Shown: positions 12,434 to 29,464 of the stretch, piece by piece
How the letters are laid out: each line of letters begins with the position of its first letter
Position numbering within the stretch: position 1 is the first letter of the stretch
Assembly (NCBI GenBank): GCA_902386205.1
Contig: CABMIH010000015.1
Location: forward strand, 1 to 32,700
Source: an uncultured archaeon
GTDB taxonomy: Archaea > Halobacteriota > Methanosarcinia > Methanosarcinales > Methanoperedenaceae
Reading direction: 5' to 3'
Length of the DNA: 32,700 nt
The notes under the pieces: model-generated
What the model was told of the DNA's origin: nothing
The model's database searches: none
The model's input: the letters and a program-made list of their open reading frames with translations, nothing else
Program-made: the position numbers and the translations under genes

Positions 12434-13381
12434 CTATGATTCCCTTTTGATCAGTTTTATAAATTTCCTGTACAATCCCGATTTTCTCTTGAGGCTGGTA
12501 GACGCTTTCACAAAATGGTTCATGATAATCCCTTTCAAGTTTCTTAACCTTCTAAAATTATCCGGATCCATTGAATAATTGTTTATGAAACCCTGGTGCT
12601 GATAAGCAATATCGCTGAACCTGTGAACCTTGTTCTCAGGAACGAAAATCGAGATCGCAAGGAGATGAATGACATGGTCTCCCCATCGATATTTATAAAT
12701 CCCCCCGGATCGGTCTAAATATTCGAAATAATTCATAAACTCATCAGAGCGCCAGAAATCAAGTTTTGCTATTTCAAAATTTGTATAGTAATAACTTCTA
12801 TCCCATACTCCATTCGACGTGAATTTATGCAAGAATTCCGGCTTTATGTTATTGTCTTCTATATATTTTTTTGTAGTATCCCACAAGCCTTTGCTGGCTG
12901 GCTCATCTTTAAATATATCGATATAACCATACTCCAAATCTCTCTCTTGCATGAACTGGAACACATCATAATTTATATTATCAAGCAAAAAAGAGTCTGT
13001 ATCCAGCCGCCAATAATAATCGTAATCTTCTAGAGCAGGATGATGAAAAATAATACCGCTGAAAAACCGGCACATATGACGGTATCCCATTGAAAAACAA
13101 TCTCCATCCACATAGACTAATTCCGGGATTTCCTCTTTATTTAAAAAATCGGGAATTTCAAATATAACCTTTTCAAATTGTACTTTTGAACGTGTGGCTT
13201 CGCGGATTTTTTTCATAAGGTTTTCATTGATGTCTTCATGAAAAATAATAACAGGATACTTGAATTTATCATTGAAATTAACATCCAGGAGTGATAAGCT
13301 GCGTTTCAGATTTGCTATATCTCCTGATTTTGACCTTGCCAGATATACGATTGCTGCCTTAACGGATTTTTCATCTTTCAT
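12434..13381 (-). CDS. GT15 (KRE2/MNT1/KTR)-like alpha-1,2-mannosyltransferase
   Basis: 315 residues with signature segments of glycosyltransferase family 15, best known from fungal Golgi mannosyltransferases. These are YPVIIFHED (42-50), YRHMCRFFSG (100-109), YYWRLDTDSFL (122-132, equivalent to the acidic nucleotide/metal site), TNFEIAKLDFWRS (200-212), YLDRSGGIYKYRWGDHVIH (221-239) and IAYQH (258-262). These carry the family's conserved Glu, Asp and His. Family members move mannose from GDP-mannose to an alpha-mannoside. Unlike the fungal type II membrane enzymes it has no N-terminal anchor, so it is probably cytosolic. It overlaps the upstream FkbM gene by 11 bases. Confidence 0.85.
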   Translation of the reverse strand: MKDEKSVKAAIVYLARSKSGDIANLKRSLSLLDVNFNDKFKYPVIIFHEDINENLMKKIREATRSKVQFEKVIFEIPDFLNKEEIPELVYVDGDCFSMGYRHMCRFFSGIIFHHPALEDYDYYWRLDTDSFLLDNINYDVFQFMQERDLEYGYIDIFKDEPASKGLWDTTKKYIEDNNIKPEFLHKFTSNGVWDRSYYYTNFEIAKLDFWRSDEFMNYFEYLDRSGGIYKYRWGDHVIHLLAISIFVPENKVHRFSDIAYQHQGFINNYSMDPDNFRRLRNLKGIIMNHFVKASTSLKRKSGLYRKFIKLIKRES

Positions 13382-14300
13382 TATTCAGCCCTGCTTTTGG
13401 TCTTGCGACAAAAAATTCATTAGTTTTTAGAATTCGCTTAAGATTATCCGGCATGACAAGAACTCCGCCAAGTGTTTTCAGGTAATAATTATGTTTATCA
13501 AGCCATACCAGAATATCTCTGGCTCCATACGGATAAACATGAAGATTCAACGGATTAATTTCTAAAAAAATCGTTGGTTTGCAGGTTGATAAGAATTCAG
13601 TTCCGCCCTGCAATATCCAGAGTTCTGCGCCTTCAGTGTCCATTTTTACAACATTTACTTCTGGCTTTCCTGCTATTTTCCACCAATTATCTACAGTCTG
13701 GACATGGACAGTAGTTTGTTTCTGCCTGCCCAATCCTCTGCCTGTATCTAAAAGTCCGTTATTCATGGACCAATCAGCATCCGGGGATTCCTGACTGATA
13801 AAAGATGTTGTTCCTGTTTCCTTCCCTAAAGCTTCCTTGTAAAGGGTTACTTTATCTGTTAATTTATTCGCTTCTATGGTTTTTTCAAATAGTGTGCTTT
13901 GGTACTGTCCCGGCTCGAAAGCAAATACCTGTGCGGACGGAATTTTCGCAAGGACATTCAGTGTCATAAAACCGGTGTGTGCGCCTATATCTACGAAGAT
14001 TGGACAATCTGCTTTGGATAATTCATCAGTTATGACTGGAGTGATCTCTTCGTCATATGACCATTCACCGGACTTAAGTGAATTTGTACGAATGCCATCA
14101 TTATTGTAATAAAATTTGAATCCTTTATAATTGAAAACCCCGAAATCCTTATCTGAAATTTTTAAGGATTTAAAAGTTATGGGAGTTTTTTTAAAAAAAT
14201 TATCGAAATTTGCTAAAAATGACACGAATTTCAGTCTTATGATTTCGAATTTGGTGGATATACTCAAGTCACCTGACAACATTATACGTATGATATTCAT
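13371..14300 (-). CDS. FkbM-family methyltransferase
   Basis: 309 residues. After a variable N-terminal 90 residues comes a Rossmann methyltransferase core with motif I FVDIGAHTGFMT, motif II VFAFEPGQYQ, and the FkbM hallmark VVKMDTEGAELWILQGG followed by a strand with IFLEINP. FkbM proteins O-methylate sugars or polyketides, and are frequent in archaeal and bacterial surface-glycan clusters. Its end overlaps the GT15 start by 11 bases, so the two are probably translated together. A methylated glycan residue is likely. The identity of the sugar is not readable. Confidence 0.88.
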   Translation of the reverse strand: MNIIRIMLSGDLSISTKFEIIRLKFVSFLANFDNFFKKTPITFKSLKISDKDFGVFNYKGFKFYYNNDGIRTNSLKSGEWSYDEEITPVITDELSKADCPIFVDIGAHTGFMTLNVLAKIPSAQVFAFEPGQYQSTLFEKTIEANKLTDKVTLYKEALGKETGTTSFISQESPDADWSMNNGLLDTGRGLGRQKQTTVHVQTVDNWWKIAGKPEVNVVKMDTEGAELWILQGGTEFLSTCKPTIFLEINPLNLHVYPYGARDILVWLDKHNYYLKTLGGVLVMPDNLKRILKTNEFFVARPKAGLNNER

Positions 14301-14351
14301 ATCATTTTCACCATCAACCTGATTGAACTGAAAGCAATTATTTTTTATCTT

Positions 14352-15386
14352 CTAAACTTTAGTATTATTGCGAGTGAAATTATTTAATAGTTTATATCTG
14401 GAATAGATTCCCCCGATAGAAAAATTTCCTTTTAACGCATGATTGGAACTCAAATAAAATAGGAAAGGGGCTCTTACTAAAGCCTTAGGCAAAACGACCG
14501 CAATAACTAATAGAAGTGTTTTGAAATTTATATTTTTTCCCAATTTAGCCAGTAAATGCCAACGAGCATCATCGGCATTAAGGAAGAATCGCAGACCAGC
14601 ACGATGAATCAAAATCATTAACAAAGATTCTTTATATGCCAGATCGAGCAACGGCGCTTTATTCACACGATATTCTTTTTCTAAAAACAGTATTACGTCA
14701 TAAAGGTCAGTATAAAATTTATAAATATTCATCCAATGATTTGTTTCCCGATATTCTATGACTGGTACATCCAGAAACCGCAATCGGGATTCAGGTCTAA
14801 GCATGCTTAAAAAAAGTGGTATATTCAAAATATTATTTCCTTGGAACTCCTTCTCCACCCAGTCTAATCGTTTTTTATTCAAACGAAGAACCGAGGCAGC
14901 AAAATATCCAAAAGGGACCGTATGTAAGTTATTCAAATATTTTTCAATTTCAATATCACAATTACTGATCAAATCATACTTATGATTTATAAGTTCTCCC
15001 ATATTATTGCGATAATTAATTGGAAGATTAAGACAATCGATACCCTCTTCATTGGCAGTTGGTAGACAGCTCATAAGCCGTTTAAATCCATCCATAAGGA
15101 TTAAATCATCATCTGAAATAATCCAGATAAATTGTCCATTAGCGTCCCTGACCAACCTTATCTGACTTCCACAAAAACCAACATTTGTCTCGTTTTTATA
15201 ATAACGCACTTCAGGCGCAAGCAAAGAACGGTTTATGCTGGCAATTTTATCTTCTGAATTGTCACGAACAATTATCTCTATTTGATCACCATATTCATTA
15301 AGGGCAAGGCGAAGAAAGGTTTGATTAAGCTCTTTTAACTTTTCAGGCCGGTTATAAGTTGGAATGCAGATACTTAGGAGTTTCAT
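14352..15386 (-). CDS. GT2 family glycosyltransferase (copy A)
   Basis: 344 residues. A GT-A fold begins at the N-terminus with [15 protein letters not shown], followed by IEIIVRDNSED and the acidic [14 protein letters not shown], the equivalent of the DxD site. The C-terminal half is hydrophobic near 285-325 (LLLVIAVVLPKALVRAPFLF), suggesting membrane association. The arrangement resembles abequosyltransferase-type GT2 enzymes of O-antigen loci. That would fit the nearby 3,6-dideoxyhexose gene, but this is inference. It is clearly paralogous to the GT2 at 16954-18015, with the radical SAM gene between them. Confidence 0.88.
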   Translation of the reverse strand: MKLLSICIPTYNRPEKLKELNQTFLRLALNEYGDQIEIIVRDNSEDKIASINRSLLAPEVRYYKNETNVGFCGSQIRLVRDANGQFIWIISDDDLILMDGFKRLMSCLPTANEEGIDCLNLPINYRNNMGELINHKYDLISNCDIEIEKYLNNLHTVPFGYFAASVLRLNKKRLDWVEKEFQGNNILNIPLFLSMLRPESRLRFLDVPVIEYRETNHWMNIYKFYTDLYDVILFLEKEYRVNKAPLLDLAYKESLLMILIHRAGLRFFLNADDARWHLLAKLGKNINFKTLLLVIAVVLPKALVRAPFLFYLSSNHALKGNFSIGGIYSRYKLLNNFTRNNTKV

Positions 15387-15398
15387 ATTACCTTTGAA

Positions 15399-16877
15399 TT
15401 ATATTCCCTTTGCTTCTTTATATTTTTTGATCAGGCGATTGTATAGAAAATCAGGACAAACAAACCGAACTACGGAATGAATCATGTAATCAAAACCTTT
15501 CTGTTCTATGCAATACTTAATGATGTAAAATAGCATAGGAGTTTGGTAATAAATTTTTTCCCACGACAACGGATTAAATGATATTCTATCTATCAAAACA
15601 TGCTTTAATTTTATCAATTCATCTATGGAATAATCTAAAGTATACGCTGGTGTTGGTCCATCTGATAGCCAATACTCATCCGTAATATTACCTGAGTTTT
15701 TCATTAATTCATATATTTCAGTTCCAGGATATACGGATATAATCGTAGGCCCATGATTATAAAATGCTATGTATTTAATTTTTTGAATCTTTTGAATAAA
15801 ATGTGCAGTTTCTATAACGGTTTCCTTTGTTTCTCCTGGAAGTCCGACTATTAAAAAGATATGTAAACTCATTTTTGAATCTTTTAGTAAAGTTATTGTA
15901 TCAATTGCATCTTGTATTTTAATGTTTTTATGACATGTTTTTAGTATATTTTCATTTGCACTTTCTAATCCAAACATTAAACTTACGAACCCGGCTTCTT
16001 TTAGATAAGGCAATAATTCCTTCTTAAATGGTTTGAATCTTGAAGAGCAAAAATATTGGAGATGATTAATTTTGCGTTTTATTATTTCCTTACATATTTC
16101 AATTACTCTGTCGTTGTTTAACATAAAGGCATCGTCAGCAAAAAATATCGACTTTAATCTTGGATAAAAATTTATTAAATACTCAATTTCATCAACTACG
16201 TTTTTAACAGATCGCATTCTTTGTATTCTTTTTGAATGAGGGTTAAGTACGCAAAATGAACATGAATAAGAACACCCTCTACTTGATAATACAATAGCTA
16301 ATGTTCTATTATCTTGCACAGGATGTTTTGGAAATGGTAAAATATCTAAATTATTTATCAATTCTCTATTTTCAGTTTTGATTACTCCTTTATCATAAAA
16401 TGCAATTCCTTTTACAGTATATAAATTATTAGTATCCATTATCTCATTAAAGGTTATCTCACCTTCCCCTATTACTGCAATAACATATGGATATTTTTCA
16501 ACTAATTGTTTATGCATTATAGTTACGTGTATCCCGCCAATAATGATTTTAATCCCAGGATATACTGCATGAATGTATTCTATCATTCTATATGTATTTA
16601 CCCTGTTTTGTGTAACCATAGAAAATCCAATATAATCTGGTGAAAATGTTAAGATCTTATTTTCAATAATATCCTTACTTTTATCAAAATCTAATGTAGG
16701 GTGATTGATGTGTATTACGCTATGCCCTTTAGATTCTAAATATGCGTGTATATATGGTAATCCAAGAGCATAAAAACTTTCAGAATTTTCCACATGTTTG
16801 TATCCATGAGGATGTTTTTTGTCAGCATCCGTATAAGATATTGGTTCATAACCTAATGACGCTAAAATTATTTTCAT
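15399..16877 (-). CDS. B12-binding-type radical SAM protein
   Basis: About 492 residues from ATG 16877. The frame opens at 16901; GGATGG upstream favours the inner ATG. The N-terminal Rossmann-like domain (1-165) has the shape of a cobalamin-binding domain (YIGFSMVTQNR, IIIGGIHVT, IGEGEITF), but I see no clear DxHxxG motif. The radical SAM core has RGCSYSCSFC (cluster cysteines C202, C206, C209), the SAM-contacting FADDAFMLN, and GLPGETKET. It could methylate or rearrange a sugar or lipid within the glycan. The precise reaction cannot be deduced. It is sandwiched between two paralogous GT2 genes. Confidence 0.88.
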   Translation of the reverse strand: MKIILASLGYEPISYTDADKKHPHGYKHVENSESFYALGLPYIHAYLESKGHSVIHINHPTLDFDKSKDIIENKILTFSPDYIGFSMVTQNRVNTYRMIEYIHAVYPGIKIIIGGIHVTIMHKQLVEKYPYVIAVIGEGEITFNEIMDTNNLYTVKGIAFYDKGVIKTENRELINNLDILPFPKHPVQDNRTLAIVLSSRGCSYSCSFCVLNPHSKRIQRMRSVKNVVDEIEYLINFYPRLKSIFFADDAFMLNNDRVIEICKEIIKRKINHLQYFCSSRFKPFKKELLPYLKEAGFVSLMFGLESANENILKTCHKNIKIQDAIDTITLLKDSKMSLHIFLIVGLPGETKETVIETAHFIQKIQKIKYIAFYNHGPTIISVYPGTEIYELMKNSGNITDEYWLSDGPTPAYTLDYSIDELIKLKHVLIDRISFNPLSWEKIYYQTPMLFYIIKYCIEQKGFDYMIHSVVRFVCPDFLYNRLIKKYKEAKGI

Positions 16878-16953
16878 ATCAACCATCCGCTTATATGACA
16901 CTGGCTGTATTTCAAATTAATGAGATTTTCGAAAACCCGGAGGGTTTGTTCCT

Positions 16954-18015
16954 TCATATATATTTTTTATTCTTAAGACTAATAGAATGATGCAATTCAT
17001 TGAAATTGGAAATGACCTTTTTTATTGAAAGCTCGTCGTTAGCATATGCATAATGAATACTTAGATAAAATATGTACGGTATCCTGATCAAAATCCCTGG
17101 CATGACGACCATAAAGGCTAAAATAACCGTTTTAATATGCAGATGTTGAGGAAGTTTGGTCAATAAAGACCAGCGCAGGCGATCTGTATTTTTGTAATTA
17201 CAAATTCCGACACGATGAGCCATTATGAGGGATAATATTTTGTTGTATAATAGATCCGATGCCTTTGTTACATCAACTCCATATTCTCTTCCTATGAATA
17301 ATAGTACGTCCTTCATGCTTTTGTAGAAAGTTGGGAGTGGCAGCCCAATGTGATAGGTTGCTGTATATTGTATGACAACTGTATCTAGAAAATGTAATCT
17401 TGATTCTGGTTTAAGCATACACAGGAAAAGTGGTATTTGGATATTATAATTGCCTTGGAACTCATTCGCTACCCAATCCAATCGTTTTTTGTTCAATCGA
17501 ATAACTGCATTCGAAAAAAGACAAAACGGGGCATGATTATATGAATAACCAACTGCATTCAAAAGTATTAAAAGATTCGTATCTTTCTCCACGCCCCATT
17601 CATGCTGATCATTTAATATTTGATTTTTATTAAAATCATCGTTACGATACGGCAGCATAATACAATCAATACATTCATTGCTTGCATGTGGCAAATAATC
17701 CATTAAGCTTTGAAAACCATTCCACAAAATAAGATCGTCATCTGAAATTATCCAGATAAACTGACCATTAGCCAATTTTGCACATTGTATTATGTTGCCA
17801 TGAAAATCAATATTTACTTTATTTTTGTAATAATGCACTTTGGGTCCAAGATTTGACCGGTTCAAAGAGGCTTCTTCGTCATCAGAATTATCACAAACGA
17901 TTATTTCAATTTGACTACCATACTCATGAAAGGCACGGGATAAAAATGTCTGATAAAGTGTTTTTATTTGTTCAGGTCTATTATAAGTCGGGATACATAT
18001 GCTCAAGAGAGTCAC
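16954..18015 (-). CDS. GT2 family glycosyltransferase (copy B)
   Basis: 353 residues with the same build as the GT2 at 14352-15386: [53 protein letters not shown], a [10 protein letters not shown] segment, and a hydrophobic stretch near 295-325 ([20 protein letters not shown]). The conserved order of these blocks shows a duplication with divergence in the central acceptor-facing region. Its start overlaps the RfbH-type gene's end by 4 bases (ATGA type), linking its translation to 3,6-dideoxyhexose formation. A dideoxyhexosyl donor is therefore plausible but unproven. Confidence 0.88.
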
Positions 18016-19346
18016 GCTAATTCACCATCATCAATTTTAATCAGAAAATTATCGAAACAGATCAAAATATATCTGATCATCTCTTCAGTCATGTCAGGAT
18101 AAACACCAATCCAGAAGGTATCATTCATTATACAATCCGTATTCATGAGATCACCATAAATACGATAATTTACATCTTTAAAACCAGGATGTCGAATGAT
18201 ATTCCCCGCGAAAAGCATTCGTGTGGCTATTTTATGTTCTTCAAGGTATTTTACTATATCAATTTTATCGAATCCTGCATTTTCACGAACAGTCAATAGA
18301 AACCCAAACCAACTGGGCTCTGCTTCCAACTCAACTTCAGGGAGAATAAAGTATTTTTTGTATTTTTTCAAACCATCATACAGAAGTTTAAAGTTTCTCT
18401 TTCGTGCTTCTATAAACGAAGGCAATTTTTTTAGCTGTTCGACCCCAACCGCTGCCTGCATATCTGTAACCTTCAAATTATATCCAATATGCGAATAAAT
18501 ATATTTGTGATCATAGCCATATGGCAATTCACCTAACTGCCAATCAAACCTTTTTCCACAAGAGTTATCGCATCCTGGTTCGCACCAGCAGTCGCGTCCC
18601 CAGTCCCTGAAGGATTCTATGAGCCTCTTTAACTTCGTATCATTCGTAACAAGCGCGCCCCCTTCACCCATTGTAATATGGTGGGGCGGGTAAAAACTGA
18701 AAGTAGCTATATGACCGAAAGTCCCTGTATATTTCCCATTGTATTTTGATCCCAGAGCGTCGCAGTTATCCTCTATTAACCAGAGGTCGTGCTTTTTCAC
18801 GATTTCCATCACAGCATCGAGATTGTAAGGATTGCCCATCGTATGTGCAATAAAAATAGCTTTTGTCCTGTCTGAAATCGCATCTTCGATTTTATCATAC
18901 TGAATATTATATGTACCAAAATTTACATCTATAAAAACCGGGATTAGATTATTCTGTATGATCGGATTGACGGTAGTTGGGAAGCCAGCAGCCACCGCAA
19001 TTACTTCATCACCTGGTTTCAACTGCTTTTCTCCAAGACTTGGTGAAGTTAAAGCGGAAACAGCAAGCAGATTGGCAGAGGAACCTGAATTTGTGAGAAG
19101 ACAATGTTTTGCACCTAAAAATTCAGCAAATTCTTTTTCGAACTGTTTGGCAAATCTGCCTGCTGTAAGCCAAAAATCAAGAGCAGAGTCTACCAGACTA
19201 ATCAATTCTTTTTCATCATATACTCTGCCTGAGTAAGGAATATTTGATTTGCCTGGTATAAATATGTCTTTTTTATGGGCCAATAAATAGTAATCTTTTA
19301 CTTTGTCAAAAATTTCTTTTTTAAGTTCTTCATTAATCGCCATCAA
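18012..19346 (-). CDS. rfbH: CDP-4-keto-6-deoxyglucose 3-dehydrase (E1), [2Fe-2S] PMP enzyme
   Basis: 444 residues of the DegT/DnrJ/EryC1 fold. The lysine of aminotransferases is replaced by His: [13 protein letters not shown] puts H222 where SHK-type lysine would be, as in E1/DdhC. The iron-sulfur ligands fit the E1 pattern C-X57-C-X-C-X7-C exactly (C195, C253, C255, C263). This identifies a PMP- and [2Fe-2S]-dependent C3 dehydrase making CDP-4-keto-3,6-dideoxyglucose rather than an amino sugar. It normally needs an NADH reductase partner (E3/DdhD), and CDP-glucose made by DdhA and DdhB; none of these is in the window. It sits between an SDR and a GT2 gene. Confidence 0.93.
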
Positions 19347-19372
19347 TATCCTGTCATCGTTAATTTAGTATA

Positions 19373-20326
19373 TTATTTGTATAAAGCCAAATTATTTTCA
19401 AACCACATTATCGTATCGGCTATTCCTTCGTCTATGTGATATTTTGGTTGCCAATTAAAATATTTTCTAACCTTTTCTATGTCTGCTTCCCATTTATCAG
19501 TGTCATGTTCTCTTCCTGGAAATGAATCCCATTTTATATCACTTTCAGATTTTGTTATTTCAATTATTTTATTTACAATGTAAGAGGTCGCTTTTTGCGA
19601 ACCATTTCCAACATTAAAAATTTCACCTTTAAATTCAGATGCAAATTCTATGCTTTGCTCATACAAATCCAATACATCTTCGATATAAATATAATCTCTT
19701 ACACTATTGGGATTTGCGAGCATTAATGTTTTATTCTGAAGTGCATTTGTTATAGCATAGGTCATTAATCGGCTTTTATCATCGTATGGTCCAAATGGGG
19801 AAAAGAGTCGAAATGTGATTATAGGCTTGCCCTTTGTTCTGGCAATAAGATTTCCATACAAAGTTGCAGAACATTTTGAGATGCCGTAGATGTTTACAGG
19901 CTCGCATAAATCAGTTTCTTTCATAGGGTACTTTTTTGGACCATACTCGGAAGAACTGCCAGTATTAACAAAACACTTATAATCAATATCTTTGCATGCA
20001 TTAATCAAATTGACAGTTCCTAAAAAATTTGTCTCTATAACTTCCTTTTCAGATGCGTGGACTCCCCCATACATGCCAGAAGTTGCAAGGTGGAATATCA
20101 CCTCTGGTTTAATCTGCTTTACCAAATCTTTTAATTTTTCTTCATTGAGCAAATCCACCGTATGATCTTTTAAATCCGATAAAATGTTGGTTAATCTCCA
20201 TTTATCTGATGACATACGAGTGATAATGTGAACTTCGTTTCCTTCTATAAGTCTCCTCACCAGATTAGCTCCGATAAAACCAGTAGCACCGATTACTAAT
20301 ATTTTATAAGATTTTGGCACAGTCAT
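19373..20326 (-). CDS. NAD(P)-dependent nucleotide-sugar SDR (epimerase/reductase)
   Basis: 317 residues of the extended short-chain dehydrogenase family. The cofactor motif GATGFIGANL is near residue 13. Catalytic Ser is in TGSSSEYG and Tyr/Lys in YGISK. The C-terminal substrate region has FNVGNGSQKATSY. In 3,6-dideoxyhexose pathways an enzyme like this reduces or epimerises C4 (abequose, paratose or tyvelose), or reduces the acetyl branch in yersiniose formation (YerF role). The gene neighbours are the RfbH-type dehydrase and a ThDP enzyme; its 5' end overlaps the ThDP gene's stop by 4 bases. Product stereochemistry is not readable. Confidence 0.85.
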   Translation of the reverse strand: MTVPKSYKILVIGATGFIGANLVRRLIEGNEVHIITRMSSDKWRLTNILSDLKDHTVDLLNEEKLKDLVKQIKPEVIFHLATSGMYGGVHASEKEVIETNFLGTVNLINACKDIDYKCFVNTGSSSEYGPKKYPMKETDLCEPVNIYGISKCSATLYGNLIARTKGKPIITFRLFSPFGPYDDKSRLMTYAITNALQNKTLMLANPNSVRDYIYIEDVLDLYEQSIEFASEFKGEIFNVGNGSQKATSYIVNKIIEITKSESDIKWDSFPGREHDTDKWEADIEKVRKYFNWQPKYHIDEGIADTIMWFENNLALYK

Positions 20327-22107
20327 TTTTTATCATTTATTCTTTGATTCCTGATTGATAGTAGCGATTCTAACTGTTCTCGACTTATATATGGTGATTG
20401 GTCTTCAATCGGTCTATTAAACTCTAATTTTGGATCAACATTTGATTCCATAGGGATAATTACCTCAACAAAAAGATGAAACGAGTCATTTAATTTTGAG
20501 GTAATGATCTCTTTCAAATCACTAAATGTACTGATGCTTTCTGATTGGATTCCGTAGGCTTGAACAACTTTGGTAAAATCGGGACAATCATACCCGATTA
20601 AAGTTGATAGAAAGCGTTTCTTAAAATAAAGTTCCTGGAATTGTCTGACCATCCCAAGACTTTTATTATTCAATAGAAATATCTTAATAGGTAATTTATT
20701 TCTGACAATCGTCTGAAGTTCTTGAATGTTCATCTGAAAACCACCATCACCAACGATTGCAATCACCTGTTTTCCGGGTTCTGCAAGAGATGCCCCAATT
20801 GCAGCTGGTAATCCAAAACCCATCGATCCCATCCCCCCGGAAATAATCATCCTTTGATTTTTTTTAATCTCAAATGATTGAGCTGCCCACATTTCATGCT
20901 GTCCGACGTCCAGGCAAATAATCGCATCGTCAGCGGCTTTGCCTGAAAGATATTTCATAAAAAAATTGGGAAGAATCGGATCTTTCTCTTTTTCAGGAAA
21001 AATATAAGAAGGAAATTTTTTCTTATATCTTTTGATAGATTCATACCAATCATTTAAAGAATTTGTATTTTTGGGCTTTAATTTTTTATTGCTGTCAGAT
21101 AAAAATTGTTTTAAATCAGATTTTATACTCAAAAATGATTTGACTTTACTATTCAATTCATTTTCATCAATATCAATATGTATGATTTTTGCTGATACTG
21201 CAAAAGTCTCAGGTCTTGTTCCTGTTTGTCTCATATCCAATCTTGAACCAAGGACAATTAATAAATCGCTATTTGCAACAGCCAGATTACTGTAGCGATT
21301 ACCGTATGCCCCGATCATTCCGAAAAAAAGCGGATGATCATGTGGAAAAGCATCTAATCCCATCAATGAGGAGACGACCGGTATTTTAGTTTTTTGGATA
21401 AACTCAAATAGTTCATTAGTAGCGCCTGAGCTTCTAATCCCTCCCCCAATCAGGACAACCGGTCTTTCTGAATGTTCAATCAGATCAAGAATGACCTTAA
21501 TTTTGGAATCATCATTTTCATTCTTCAGTTCTTCTTTGATATTGCTGCACTCCTCACTATCAAAGAACTCTGGCAATTCATCAGGATTTATCTCTGTTCT
21601 CTGGATATTCATGGGAATATCCAGCAACACCGGGCCAGGCCGACCTGATTTCGCTATATATATAGCTTTCTGCAGTTGATATTTTATCGAGGTGGGCTCA
21701 GTAATCATACACGCATATTTTGTGATTGGTTTGACGATATTTACTATATCTGTTTCCTGAAATCCCAGTTGTCTTATTTTTTTATTGAATTTGTATTCGT
21801 ATGTATTTACCTGACCTGTAATGTATAAGCATGGAATTGAATCAAAATAGGCACTACCAATTCCCGTAATCAGATTAGTCGCCCCGGGGCCGCTTGTTGC
21901 CATTGCGACTCCTATGTTCGAAGTTACACGCGAATAAGCTTCAGCAGCAAATGCAGCTGCCTGCTCATGATGTGTAACAATGCAGGCGATATCTTTTCTA
22001 CCATATGTTGAGTCAACCAGATGAGTTATCGCACCGCCTATGACCTCAAATATATATCTGATATTATTCTCAATGAGAAAATCTATCACATAATCTGATA
22101 TTTTCAT
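20323..22107 (-). CDS. ThDP-dependent enzyme of the acetolactate synthase family, YerE-like (copy 1)
   Basis: 594 residues with the full three-domain PYR, central and PP layout. The activating glutamate is E48 in THHEQAAAFAAEAY. The ThDP/Mg motif is GDGGFQMNIQEL followed by LNNKS. The central domain has RPVVLIGGGIRSSG. True valine/isoleucine acetolactate synthases look similar, but this gene is locked between NeuB and an RfbH/SDR pair. In yersiniose A synthesis the homologue YerE transfers an acetyl unit from pyruvate to the C4 ketone of a CDP-3,6-dideoxyhexulose. A similar C-C bond-forming role is my inference. It is paralogous to the protein at 27656-29464. Confidence 0.85.
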   Translation of the reverse strand: MKISDYVIDFLIENNIRYIFEVIGGAITHLVDSTYGRKDIACIVTHHEQAAAFAAEAYSRVTSNIGVAMATSGPGATNLITGIGSAYFDSIPCLYITGQVNTYEYKFNKKIRQLGFQETDIVNIVKPITKYACMITEPTSIKYQLQKAIYIAKSGRPGPVLLDIPMNIQRTEINPDELPEFFDSEECSNIKEELKNENDDSKIKVILDLIEHSERPVVLIGGGIRSSGATNELFEFIQKTKIPVVSSLMGLDAFPHDHPLFFGMIGAYGNRYSNLAVANSDLLIVLGSRLDMRQTGTRPETFAVSAKIIHIDIDENELNSKVKSFLSIKSDLKQFLSDSNKKLKPKNTNSLNDWYESIKRYKKKFPSYIFPEKEKDPILPNFFMKYLSGKAADDAIICLDVGQHEMWAAQSFEIKKNQRMIISGGMGSMGFGLPAAIGASLAEPGKQVIAIVGDGGFQMNIQELQTIVRNKLPIKIFLLNNKSLGMVRQFQELYFKKRFLSTLIGYDCPDFTKVVQAYGIQSESISTFSDLKEIITSKLNDSFHLFVEVIIPMESNVDPKLEFNRPIEDQSPYISREQLESLLSIRNQRINDKK

Positions 22108-22129
22108 ATTTTAAACTTGGAACTCTAAA

Positions 22130-23656
22130 TTATGATGGTCTGACCAACCAGTCAGACCAAAAAGTCATCGCAGTTTTACGATTTTTATTATTTGTGATTT
22201 TCGCGTCTTCATAGAAAGAGTCATTGATATAATGAGTAGTTGAGATTTCTTCAAAAACCATTCCATTCTTAGAACTGAAACTATGCTTGACACCTCTTTC
22301 AACGATAATGATCTCCCCGGGTTTATATTCTTTTTCAATACCATCCAGGTTTATGGTAACATCTCCATAAAGAACATGGAATGTTTCCTCTTTCTTTTCA
22401 TGATGATGTACTGGATGTTTCTGGCCGGGAAGCATTATTATTAATTTTTTACAATATTCCCTGTTGATGCAACTAATTATTACAGCGCCCCACTGTTCAA
22501 AATTTTCAATACCATAGTGGTGAGACAATTCAAGTTCCATCTTGTTTGGAAGATTTATCTTACTATCTATAAGGATTTGCCTGACACTCTGGCTTATTTG
22601 CATAAATTTCTCTCTCAGGTTCTTTGCTTTTATATCATTTAACAATACTGGTTTATTTATATCTATTTCTTTATTTGCAGTGAATTCCATATATTTAGAG
22701 AAATCATTGGCAAGAACCTGATTATCAACATTTGGTATGGCAAAAAACGTATTCAAAAGATCTATTTTTTCACCCCCCCTTATTCTCCTTCTTGCAAAAA
22801 CCCCTCTTTTCAAACCTCTTAAGTCAGTCGTTTCCTTTTCTGAGCAATCTCTTCTAATATTTGAAACCCCGCACATAATAAATGCTTCCTGGGCTGCTGA
22901 CAACCATTTATTAATTTGTTCAGGCATCGAAGAATAATCATTTAGGCTATATTTATCACTCTTCAATCCAACATGTCTCTCAAAAACAGTTGCTCCTTTA
23001 CCAATGGCTATCTTAATTGCATCAAAATTACCAGGATCTTCATGTGTTGAATAGCCAATTGAAACATCAGGATATCTCTGACGTAGAAAATCAATCTGAC
23101 TTAGTTCTAAATTATTTTTACATGTAGGATACTCACCTACACAATGCATCAGGCAGAAATTTTTTCTTCTATGTTCAAAAAAAGATACTACCTTATCTAT
23201 ATCCTCTAAGGAAGCGCCCGCCGTAGATGTAATAATTGGTTTTTCAGTTTTTGCTATTCTTTCCAATAAAGGCCAGTCTGTAAATGAACTGCTTCCTATT
23301 TTTATTATATCAAAACCGTGTTTTTCAATGAGATCAACTGATTTTTCATCGAAGGGTGTGCATATGGGTATGAAGTTGTATTTTTTGATTTCATCTATTA
23401 ATATTAGAAATTCATTCTCGGTTAATCTTGTTTCTGAAAAACGTTTTACATATTTTATATCCATTCTTTTTTTGTAATCTGGATGAATAAATGTATCCAG
23501 ATCCCTGTATTGGAGTTTAAAACCAAAATTAAAATCAAATTTCTTACTAACTTCATGGAATTCTCTTATTATCTTCAATCCATGTTCCACACTTCCCATA
23601 TGGTTGTTAGCCATTTCAAAAATAAATAAATTTTTGAATATTTCGTTTGTAACCAT
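22130..23656 (-). CDS. NeuB-type nonulosonate synthase fused to SAF and cupin domains
   Basis: 508 residues. A NeuB TIM barrel (about 1-260) has FEMANNHMGSVEHGL, GFKLQYRD, CTPFDEKSVDLIEKHGFDII, and a FERHVGL strand end. An SAF (antifreeze-like) domain (about 285-350) has RGVFARRRIRGGEKI. A C-terminal cupin (about 400-480) has PVHHHEKKEETFHVLYG and a late His in ERGVKHSF. The barrel condenses PEP with an aldose to give a nine-carbon or related ulosonic acid. The cupin could bind metal and isomerise or sense a sugar. A HAD phosphatase gene lies 9 bases upstream, suggesting a phosphorylated product. No NeuC or NeuA homologue is present in the window. Confidence 0.88.
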   Translation of the reverse strand: MVTNEIFKNLFIFEMANNHMGSVEHGLKIIREFHEVSKKFDFNFGFKLQYRDLDTFIHPDYKKRMDIKYVKRFSETRLTENEFLILIDEIKKYNFIPICTPFDEKSVDLIEKHGFDIIKIGSSSFTDWPLLERIAKTEKPIITSTAGASLEDIDKVVSFFEHRRKNFCLMHCVGEYPTCKNNLELSQIDFLRQRYPDVSIGYSTHEDPGNFDAIKIAIGKGATVFERHVGLKSDKYSLNDYSSMPEQINKWLSAAQEAFIMCGVSNIRRDCSEKETTDLRGLKRGVFARRRIRGGEKIDLLNTFFAIPNVDNQVLANDFSKYMEFTANKEIDINKPVLLNDIKAKNLREKFMQISQSVRQILIDSKINLPNKMELELSHHYGIENFEQWGAVIISCINREYCKKLIIMLPGQKHPVHHHEKKEETFHVLYGDVTINLDGIEKEYKPGEIIIVERGVKHSFSSKNGMVFEEISTTHYINDSFYEDAKITNNKNRKTAMTFWSDWLVRPS

Positions 23657-23665
23657 TTTTGACCC

Positions 23666-24340
23666 TCATTGTATATTTCTTTTATATTTGGTTAATAAAT
23701 TATTAAAATCATTAATTGAGTTTAAAACATATAATGGTTTGGCTTCATTTATTGTATTTGCATTGCCATAACCATCTAATATAGCCACTGCACTCATGTC
23801 ATTGTTATGCGCAGCAATAATGTCTGATGCATCATCTCCCACCATTAAAGTGGTATCCATATGAAGATTCCATTTTTTAATAATATAAGATATCATTTCT
23901 GTTTTGTTCATTTTTTTTCCTGCTAACGCATCTAAAGAAACCACATCGTCAAAAACATCGATCTTTAAATTTGTCAATATTTTTTTCGTGACAAGAATTG
24001 GTTTATTCGTCGCAATAAATATTTTAATGTTCAGGTGTTTCAGATCTTGAATTAGTTTGTAAACGCCATCATTTAATATTGTTTTCGAAAAAGAGCTATT
24101 GTCGTAACAGTTCCTGAATTCTTTGGTTACTATTTGAGTTTGTTCCTCAGTTATGTCCGGTGTAATTTTTTTTATCAATTCGTTTAGTGGGGGTCCTATG
24201 AAAGCCGAACTGATCTCCACATTTGAATATTCAGGAATTGAAAAATATGCTTTTTTTAAACAATGGATTATATCTCCTGCTGAATCAATTAAAGTTCCAT
24301 CCAGGTCGAATATTATATTATCTATTTTAAACTTATACAT
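23666..24340 (-). CDS. HAD-superfamily phosphatase (Gph-like)
   Basis: 224 residues, subclass I HAD with a helical cap. Motif I is FDLDGTLIDSAG (nucleophile and acid D13/D15 region), motif II is IFIATNKP, motif III is the Lys in GKKMNKTE, and motif IV is LMVGDDASDIIAA. This resembles phosphoglycolate phosphatase, but the place just before the NeuB-type gene suggests it removes phosphate from a nonulosonate 9-phosphate, as in the phosphorylated sialic-acid/KDN route. That assignment is inference from neighbours. The ATG is followed at 9 bases after its stop by the synthase, so the two are probably cotranscribed. Confidence 0.87.
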   Translation of the reverse strand: MYKFKIDNIIFDLDGTLIDSAGDIIHCLKKAYFSIPEYSNVEISSAFIGPPLNELIKKITPDITEEQTQIVTKEFRNCYDNSSFSKTILNDGVYKLIQDLKHLNIKIFIATNKPILVTKKILTNLKIDVFDDVVSLDALAGKKMNKTEMISYIIKKWNLHMDTTLMVGDDASDIIAAHNNDMSAVAILDGYGNANTINEAKPLYVLNSINDFNNLLTKYKRNIQ

Positions 24341-27655: not shown

Positions 27656-29464
27656 TTATTCCTCTAAGGGTTCAATGATCATATTTGCTTTAAATTCCTC
27701 CCTGTCCAAAAAGGGCCATAAGTCTTCCAGGGGTTTAGACACCATCGAACCATCGGGTTTTGCTATTGAGGACATTTTCGGAGCTGTCTGTATATCCGGG
27801 TCGATCATCACTTCACAAACTACCGGGCCTTCCGTTTCAAGAACATCCTGTACATCCTTTTTCAAATTTTCCTGGTTCGATATCTTTACTGTATTCAGCC
27901 CGTAGGCAGAAGCGACTTTACATGTATCCGGAAGGGTCAGGCCGCTTGATGGGTCACAGCAAACCAGCCGCCCATTAAAAATTTTCATATGGGTATTTCT
28001 AATTGATGCATATCCGTTATTATTAAGAATGAATAGTTTTATCGGAAGATTTAATCTCTTCAGTGTTTCTAATTCCTGGATATTATGCTGCAACCCCCCG
28101 TCGCCGATAATGCTGATCGTTCGTTTTTTTCCGCTTGCAAGACATGCCCCGATACTGGCCGGAAGCCCAAACCCCATGGATCCCAATCCCGGTGTATTAA
28201 AAATACGCTGTCCCTTTTTAGCCCTGAATGCCTGCATCGTTATCTCGGCACAGCCGCCGGAACTCCCGGGGACAAGAACATCTGTTTCCATCAATAATTC
28301 CGACAGGACATCTATTAACGCATAGGTATTCACGGGTTCTTTTTGATTCCAGTATTCTGGAATTATCACAGGATATTTATTCTTCCATGATGCACACCTG
28401 GACATCCAGTCCGGCCGGTCTTTATATTGCACCATATCCAGATTATCGATCAATTCCTGCATGAAGGCTTTTGCATCTGAACATACGGGAACATCAATAT
28501 CCATTTTCATCTTCCTGATTTCAGCTTCATCAATATCCACTATCACTTTTTTGGCCATGCGTGCAAAATTGTTATAATTAAAACCAATCTGGGCCAGGTC
28601 AAGACGGGCGCCTATAGTAAGTATGAGATCAGAGTTCTGCTGGATGAAATTAGCTCCCCGCTGTCCCACTGAACCCGGTCTCCCGAAAAAAAGCTCATGA
28701 TCCTCAGGTAAAAAGTCTATGGCTTTCCATGTTGTAAGCACGGGGATTTTAAGAGAAGATATCAAATATAAAAATTCTTTTTCCGCTTTTGAAAGCCGTA
28801 TCCCGTTCCCGGCCAAGATCACAGGTCTTTCTGATTTGTTTAGCAAACTGATAACTTCCTCCACTTTTGTTTTCAGTTCTTTCAGGTTATCCGTATGCTC
28901 TATCTCTGATTGATCAAATCCCTTCATATTATCTTCATCAATACTAGCGCCCTGGACATCCAGAGGTATATCGATCCATACCGGCCCCGGCCGTCCGTTG
29001 CGTGCAAGATATGCTGCTTTTTCCAGATGGTATTTTATACTGAGAGGATCCGTAACTGTTACAGCATATTTTGTAACAGGATTTACTAATTTGACTATAT
29101 CCACTTCCTGGATTCCCATCTGCCTGACCCCGCTGGCACCTATCATATCAGAACGTTTTGCCTGCCCGGAAATAACAAGGACAGGCGTGGAATCGATCCA
29201 TGCCCCGGCAACACCTGTGATAGCGTTGGTTCCCCCGGGCCCTGTTGTTACAAGTGCAACCCCGATATTATTGGTATATTGTCCGTAAGCTTCGGCCGCT
29301 ATAGCCGCTGCCTGTTCGTGAAGACAACAAACATGTTCAAAATCATTGCACCTGCCAAGAGAATCGACAAGATGCATACAACCCCCGCCAGGCAGCAAAA
29401 AAACATATTTAATATCAAGCCTGGAAATAAAATCAATTACATAATCAGATAATTTAATAATCAT
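27656..29464 (-). CDS. ThDP-dependent enzyme of the acetolactate synthase family (copy 2)
   Basis: 602 residues with PYR, central and PP domains. The activating glutamate is E50 in LHEQAAAIAAEAYGQ. The substrate loop is in VTTGPGGTNAITGV. The ThDP/Mg motif is GDGGLQHNIQEL, ending in FILNNNGYASIR. It is paralogous to the enzyme at 20323-22107, both starting with a SDYVIDF helix and sharing the IQELxTxxRxxLPIK block, yet it is clearly diverged and of higher GC content. It follows the Rpe-like gene by 53 bases. A decarboxylase/ligase making a branched or chain-extended sugar, or a stand-alone acetohydroxyacid synthase, are the two options. The locus favours the former. Confidence 0.82.
   Translation of the reverse strand: MIIKLSDYVIDFISRLDIKYVFLLPGGGCMHLVDSLGRCNDFEHVCCLHEQAAAIAAEAYGQYTNNIGVALVTTGPGGTNAITGVAGAWIDSTPVLVISGQAKRSDMIGASGVRQMGIQEVDIVKLVNPVTKYAVTVTDPLSIKYHLEKAAYLARNGRPGPVWIDIPLDVQGASIDEDNMKGFDQSEIEHTDNLKELKTKVEEVISLLNKSERPVILAGNGIRLSKAEKEFLYLISSLKIPVLTTWKAIDFLPEDHELFFGRPGSVGQRGANFIQQNSDLILTIGARLDLAQIGFNYNNFARMAKKVIVDIDEAEIRKMKMDIDVPVCSDAKAFMQELIDNLDMVQYKDRPDWMSRCASWKNKYPVIIPEYWNQKEPVNTYALIDVLSELLMETDVLVPGSSGGCAEITMQAFRAKKGQRIFNTPGLGSMGFGLPASIGACLASGKKRTISIIGDGGLQHNIQELETLKRLNLPIKLFILNNNGYASIRNTHMKIFNGRLVCCDPSSGLTLPDTCKVASAYGLNTVKISNQENLKKDVQDVLETEGPVVCEVMIDPDIQTAPKMSSIAKPDGSMVSKPLEDLWPFLDREEFKANMIIEPLEE

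Follow-up and report, generated by a model that had tools for sequence, protein, structure and literature searches.

Introduction

Among surveyed plants, animals and fungi, the Pfam family PF01793 occurs in fungi alone, and glycosyltransferase family 15 (GT15) has been called fungus-specific (PMC5225481); in soil metagenomes, PF01793 has been taken as a eukaryotic signal (PMC11237643). The closest described systems are the yeast GT15 enzyme Kre2p/Mnt1p (PDB 1s4n, 1s4o and 1s4p) and the Golgi-lumenal fungal Ktr4 (PDB 5a07 and 7boo). The fungal Golgi KTR enzymes are recognised by a type II membrane anchor with a stalk, an EPx motif, a Trp at the guanine and disulfide Cys residues. For Ktr4p, the contacts with GDP and Mn are published, E262 being an Mn ligand (PMC4546622), and in modelled CaMnt1, an Asp holds O6 of the donor (PMC11077754). 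We considered Cgm1 of Cryptococcus (PMC12493134) as a GT15 enzyme making another linkage and set it aside, as that source did not establish its family. In the open-licence literature searched, we found no report of an archaeal or phage branch of the family. To our knowledge, no activity is known for any non-fungal GT15 member.

A GT15 Gene in Candidatus Methanoperedens

The window, i.e., the whole stretch of 32,700 nucleotides analysed (contig CABMIH010000015.1), is DNA of Candidatus Methanoperedens. Its minus strand carries, at 12434–13381 (read 13381→12434), an open reading frame of 315 amino acids. The initial annotation, which stated no coding strand, was right in placing this frame and in assigning the product to GT15. 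PF01793 (Glyco_transf_15) is its sole Pfam family, matched with 190.1 bits (E = 9e-56; cut-off 25) over profile positions 52–324 of 325, and with phmmer, only GT15 structures were matched in the PDB (Kre2 1s4n, 5.8e-47; Aspergillus fumigatus Ktr4 7boo, 4.8e-43; yeast Ktr4p 5a07, 4.4e-34), while NCBIfam and PHROGs yielded no match to the protein. All of the ordered signature blocks quoted from the sequence are present (FHED at residues 47–50, MCRFFSG at 103–109, NFEI at 201–204, FWRS at 209–212, RWGDxxxH at 232–239 and YQH at 260–262), and so is the altered acidic site, WRLDTD, at 124–129. The fungal membrane anchor is absent, as had been proposed: the protein has no hydrophobic segment, its most hydrophobic 19-mer averages 0.89, and the N-terminus is the first beta strand. 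This soluble protein ends in a strongly basic tail (residues 273–315; 13 K/R, 2 D/E), modelled as a low-confidence helix.

Two objections were considered and rejected. A TGA in the whole-genome match could be read as the mark of a broken gene; it precedes the start codon and comes from an over-extended match. The DxD signature could likewise be taken as a sign of a family other than GT15; fold and profile are unambiguous for GT15.

Predicted Structure and Active Site

An AlphaFold model built from 51 window and locus sequences (mean pLDDT 86.9, pTM 0.83; the linker at residues ~81–100 and the tail past ~265 are less certain) has the GT-A fold of the Kre2 kind. With this model as the Foldseek query against the PDB, the 11 top matches are all GT15 (E from 1e-27 to 3e-22), the best being the Kre2–GDP–Mn complex 1s4o (E = 1.1e-27, TM 0.78, 33% identity); the next family listed, xyloside xylosyltransferase 1 (XXYLT1), follows at a distance with 2e-9. 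A structural comparison with Mnt1 had been suggested earlier; here, the GT15 fold fits best, and a fit to some other GT family only was not seen.

Residues were mapped by alignment onto the Ktr4p contacts (PMC4546622) and the modelled CaMnt1 contacts (PMC11077754), Kre2 numbers corresponding to CaMnt1 numbers plus 11, an offset deduced from the alignment. At the metal site, D127-T128-D129 (12995–13003, minus strand) replaces the fungal EPD, EPN or EPK, with D127 at the position of Kre2 E247 and Ktr4p E262. The predicted second Mn ligand is H262 (12596–12598, minus strand; Kre2 H388, Ktr4p H411), the equivalent of which is invariant in 49 of 49 viral rows. Y100 completes the aligned metal and phosphate residues, and Tyr229 of Ktr4p, a beta-phosphate ligand, has no counterpart in the window protein. 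The guanine and ribose are matched by L14, R16, E49 (Asp in fungi), F74 (Trp in fungi) and M103, with H48 in the place of Ktr4p N172. For the donor sugar, R125, T200, N201 and D235 are retained; D235 (Kre2 Asp361) occurs without exception in the 51 archaeal and phage rows, and the neighbouring Kre2 A362 is H236 in the window protein but Ala in the sister species. Because the GDP, metal and donor-sugar residues are retained, a GDP-sugar as donor is a well-supported prediction. The conserved family residues D127, H262, Y100 (Kre2 Tyr220), E203 and D235 are all present, the acidic ligand being Asp, not Glu; E203 (Kre2 Glu329) is not universal in the family, as Glu is missing there in eight of the 49 viral rows.

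At the acceptor site, R232 (Kre2 Arg358) and Y100 are kept, and D159 keeps Kre2 Glu279 in kind, but Tyr197 and Tyr199 take the place of Kre2 His323 and Trp325 in the window protein, so the acceptor likely differs from the fungal one. Since these acceptor residues are replaced and the fungal family also contains mannosylphosphate transferases (PMC4546622), the alpha-1,2-mannose first predicted for the surface glycan is not established, and we do not predict the linkage with confidence.

Set beside Kre2p/Mnt1p, the window protein has in common the fold, the YRHMCR, RWGD and YxH blocks, the GDP, metal and donor-sugar residues, and the Glu at E203. It differs by lacking anchor and stalk, by DTD for EPD, by Phe for Trp at the guanine, by its replaced acceptor His and Trp, by its basic C-terminal tail and by the absence of the disulfide Cys (D134, S196 and N268 stand at the Cys positions tested). 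Fungal Ktr4, of the same family and fold, has matching ligands (E262 and H411 for D127 and H262) and differs in its EPN/EPK motif, its Tyr229 phosphate contact and its lumenal location. The archaeal and phage proteins have in common D[ST]D versus the fungal EPx, Phe74 for Trp and no fungal Cys.

The Glycan Cassette and a Second Species

The GT15 gene stands at the end of a low-GC glycan island (12434–24340, minus strand), in which the genes have 29–38% GC as against mostly 41–50% in the flanking core genes. Its start codon overlaps by 11 bases the end of the upstream gene for an FkbM-type methyltransferase (13371–14300; PF05050, 60 bits). Upstream on the same strand follow a GT2-type glycosyltransferase (14352–15386; PF00535, 54.8 bits), a B12-binding radical SAM protein (15399–16901; Pfam), a second GT2-type glycosyltransferase (16954–18015; PF00535, 51 bits), an RfbH/E1-type CDP-4-keto-6-deoxyglucose 3-dehydrase (18012–19346; NF011936, 746.7 bits, cut-off 423; 582 bits to PDB 3bcx), an SDR protein resembling sugar-nucleotide epimerases/dehydratases (19373–20326; PF01370, 154.7 bits, below every NCBIfam equivalog cut-off) and a thiamine-diphosphate enzyme of the acetolactate synthase type (20323–22107; Pfam, NCBIfam and PDB, with 445 bits to a solved structure), a candidate for carbon branching. 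A NeuB-like synthase with a C-terminal cupin domain (22130–23656; Pfam) also lies inside the island. A second acetolactate-synthase-like enzyme is encoded at 27656–29464, in the same run of co-oriented glycan genes.

Given the strong RfbH match, a 3,6-dideoxyhexose is probably part of the glycan, and the acetolactate-synthase-like enzyme may possibly extend this sugar with a two-carbon branch; RfbH, SDR and this enzyme in a row (18012–22107) presumably follow a YerE-like logic for a branched sugar. No CDP-glucose 4,6-dehydratase above its cut-off was found in the genome. The cassette sugar genes point to the dideoxy sugar, and no gene for GDP-mannose synthesis was found among them; a GMP_PMI enzyme (465 bits, cut-off 373) is encoded on another contig of the same genome.

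The archaeal host assumed in the initial annotation is borne out by a congeneric metagenome-assembled genome (MAG), Candidatus Methanoperedens sp. MnB_21, with a GT15 ~80–81% identical to the window copy. Its cassette (locus L073) has the order of the window, i.e., thiamine-diphosphate enzyme, SDR, RfbH, GT2, GT2, FkbM and GT15, with counterparts of both GT2 genes and of the FkbM–GT15 pair, and is also set off by GC content (36–41% vs. 46–49%). The window has two genes more: the NeuB-cupin gene, upstream and absent from the L073 stretch, and the radical SAM gene, of 29% GC, between the two GT2 genes. Low GC indicates that the cassette is probably foreign to its host, and the same GC drop might also mean that viral or fungal DNA had contaminated the assembly or been wrongly joined to it; we consider this exceedingly improbable, as archaeal core genes bracket the cassette within one contig and MnB_21 has the same cassette, with its 81% identical GT15, between different flanking genes.

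Distribution and Relatives in Tailed Phages

Within the genus, two of 31 genomes carry GT15, and the same two are the only ones among 393 genomes of the phylum; it was absent from 14 control genomes. When 84,980 species genomes were scanned with two exact motif patterns (MGYRHMC and the RLD[TSC]DS block), which fungal-like or divergent forms would escape, one relative was found, that of MnB_21. GT15 is thus very rare in cellular prokaryotes beyond the two Methanoperedens species. The window protein had no match in GenBank phages or PLSDB plasmids, nor had two phage GT15s in GenBank phages.

Relatives abound in uncultivated viruses. Pattern scans of IMG/VR gave 70 loci for YRHMC and 61 for a C-terminal-half pattern, the two sets overlapping; a single-protein scan and a first alignment scan of IMG/VR found nothing, such negative scans being pattern-dependent. 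With a profile built in this analysis, the fetched virus loci contain 109 distinct GT15-like open reading frames. Three of four viral contigs checked have hallmark genes of tailed phages: among contigs of 140–197 kb, terminase is present in G438, G442 and G440, tail sheath and baseplate in G438 and G442, and a tail protein and a DNA polymerase alone were seen in G443. UvsX is encoded near GT15 in L012. In a divergent viral set (L123–L150), PF01793 scored 39–70 bits in the four proteins tested; members of this set are ~300 amino acids long, many with RWGDNE or RWGDND, lack YRHMCR and lie on contigs of up to 194 kb. A structure search of BFVD returned one giant-virus protein (TM 0.68). An under-recognised prokaryotic branch, as had been surmised, is supported; however, it consists mainly of uncultivated phages, and just two archaeal species were found in it.

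The tailed-phage GT15s (L003, L005, L012 and others), which have no PHROG family, resemble the window protein in the D[ST]D motif, the absence of an anchor, a core identity of up to 47% and the deoxysugar and FkbM genes nearby, and they differ in forming separate supported clades, the window cassette being chromosomal and archaeal. A PF05050 methyltransferase adjoins GT15 in 16 of the 70 first viral loci (a raw count that includes several near-copies), and in one viral-contig protein, the two are fused (L067:7116–8525; PF05050 at residues 28–179, PF01793 at 216–466). FkbM–GT15 pairing is therefore common to archaeal cassettes and phage loci, although the phage loci hold no close relative of the archaeal GT2 or FkbM proteins (for FkbM, none in 70 at E < 1e-8, within the same Pfam family). 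Adjacency and fusion suggest a transfer-then-methylate step, in which mannose would be added and then O-methylated.

Other arrangements were seen in viral contigs. L027:5443–7215 encodes a 591-residue protein with an N-terminal GT15 followed by ~330 residues without a Pfam match, and two different GT15 genes adjoin or lie close on a single phage contig in L011/L012, L009, L018, L020 and L017.

Phylogeny and Origin

Trees without an outgroup, in which fungi were represented by three sequences, were inferred from 54 rows, and from 50 after four long-branch rows were left out. Both trees support the fungal group and the archaeal group, and phage groups A and B each gain support once the long-branch rows are removed. 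The clade of the three fungal sequences, in which both the Kre2 and the Ktr4 type are represented, has 100/100 support; the archaeal pair falls outside these sampled fungi and outside both phage groups. It pairs with the fungi at a support of 57/11, and none of the alternative pairings tested is rejected (AU p 0.31–0.38).

Recent horizontal transfer from a fungus to Methanoperedens, as the initial annotation had envisaged, would agree with the description of GT15 as fungal (PMC5225481) and with the low-GC island, which is probably foreign. We regard it as very unlikely: the 100/100 fungal clade excludes the archaeal pair, the closest sequences are from phages (core identity up to 46.7%, against 33–36% for fungal proteins), the gene sits among glycan genes of prokaryotic kind, and the protein retains neither a fungal disulfide nor an anchor.

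An origin of the gene in a tailed phage, or in a shared environmental pool of glycan genes, is a serious possibility, to which we give somewhat less than even weight. The closest sequences being from phages, the common FkbM pairing and the company that GT15 keeps in loci L007 and L025 (RfbH-like and thiamine-diphosphate genes in both, NeuB-like too in L025) speak for it. The position of the archaeal pair outside both phage groups, with the tested alternatives at AU p 0.31–0.38, speaks against it, as do the scores of the phage RfbH and thiamine enzymes, which match the archaeal ones with 390 and 402 bits, less than the archaeal enzymes score against solved structures (582 and 445 bits). This origin is compatible with the function proposed below.

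Proposed Function

We consider it fairly probable, taken as a whole, that the window GT15 is a cytoplasmic, retaining GT-A enzyme of the D[ST]D-type archaeal and phage assemblage, acting at the end of a surface-glycan cassette that Candidatus Methanoperedens has acquired. Most likely, it would bind GDP-mannose and Mn2+ via D127 and H262, hold the donor sugar by R125, T200, N201 and D235, and transfer mannose in alpha linkage, at the membrane face, to an acceptor other than mannan, which is probably a glycan on a lipid carrier; the FkbM methyltransferase of the pair would then likely O-methylate the mannose terminus. GDP-mannose itself is a plausible donor because the donor residues are kept and GMP_PMI is encoded in the genome.

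An enzyme of the same class could instead use a derivative of GDP-mannose, e.g., a GDP-6-deoxy sugar. Homologues of GDP-mannose 4,6-dehydratase (at least 236 bits) lie near GT15 in eight phage loci, some of them on near-identical contigs, and deoxysugar genes are abundant in the cassette. We nevertheless judge such a donor unlikely, though worth keeping in mind, since Asp235, which corresponds to the Asp described for CaMnt1 as holding the donor O6 (PMC11077754), does not vary in the archaeal and phage rows, and RfbH speaks for a CDP-linked rather than a GDP-linked sugar. GDP-mannose remains our preferred donor.

Conclusions

The archaeal and phage GT15 assemblage with a DxD site is largely unrecognised. 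GT15 is not a fungal hallmark, and the GT15 genes of metagenomes need not be of fungal source, which undermines the reading of PF01793 as a eukaryotic or fungus-specific signal. A more speculative reading, which we regard as doubtful, is that GT15 belongs first of all to archaea and the viruses of prokaryotes, with the canonical DxD; the fungal Golgi enzymes, with EPx, anchor and disulfides, would be derived, and in archaea and phages, GT15 paired with FkbM would cap glycans of the surface or the virion with O-methylated mannose. How the fungal mannan machinery arose becomes a testable question, and the archaeal and phage GT15s, as small soluble enzymes without the fungal disulfides, are useful for biochemistry. 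For the organism itself, an anaerobic methane oxidiser, the cassette predicts an unusual surface glycan.
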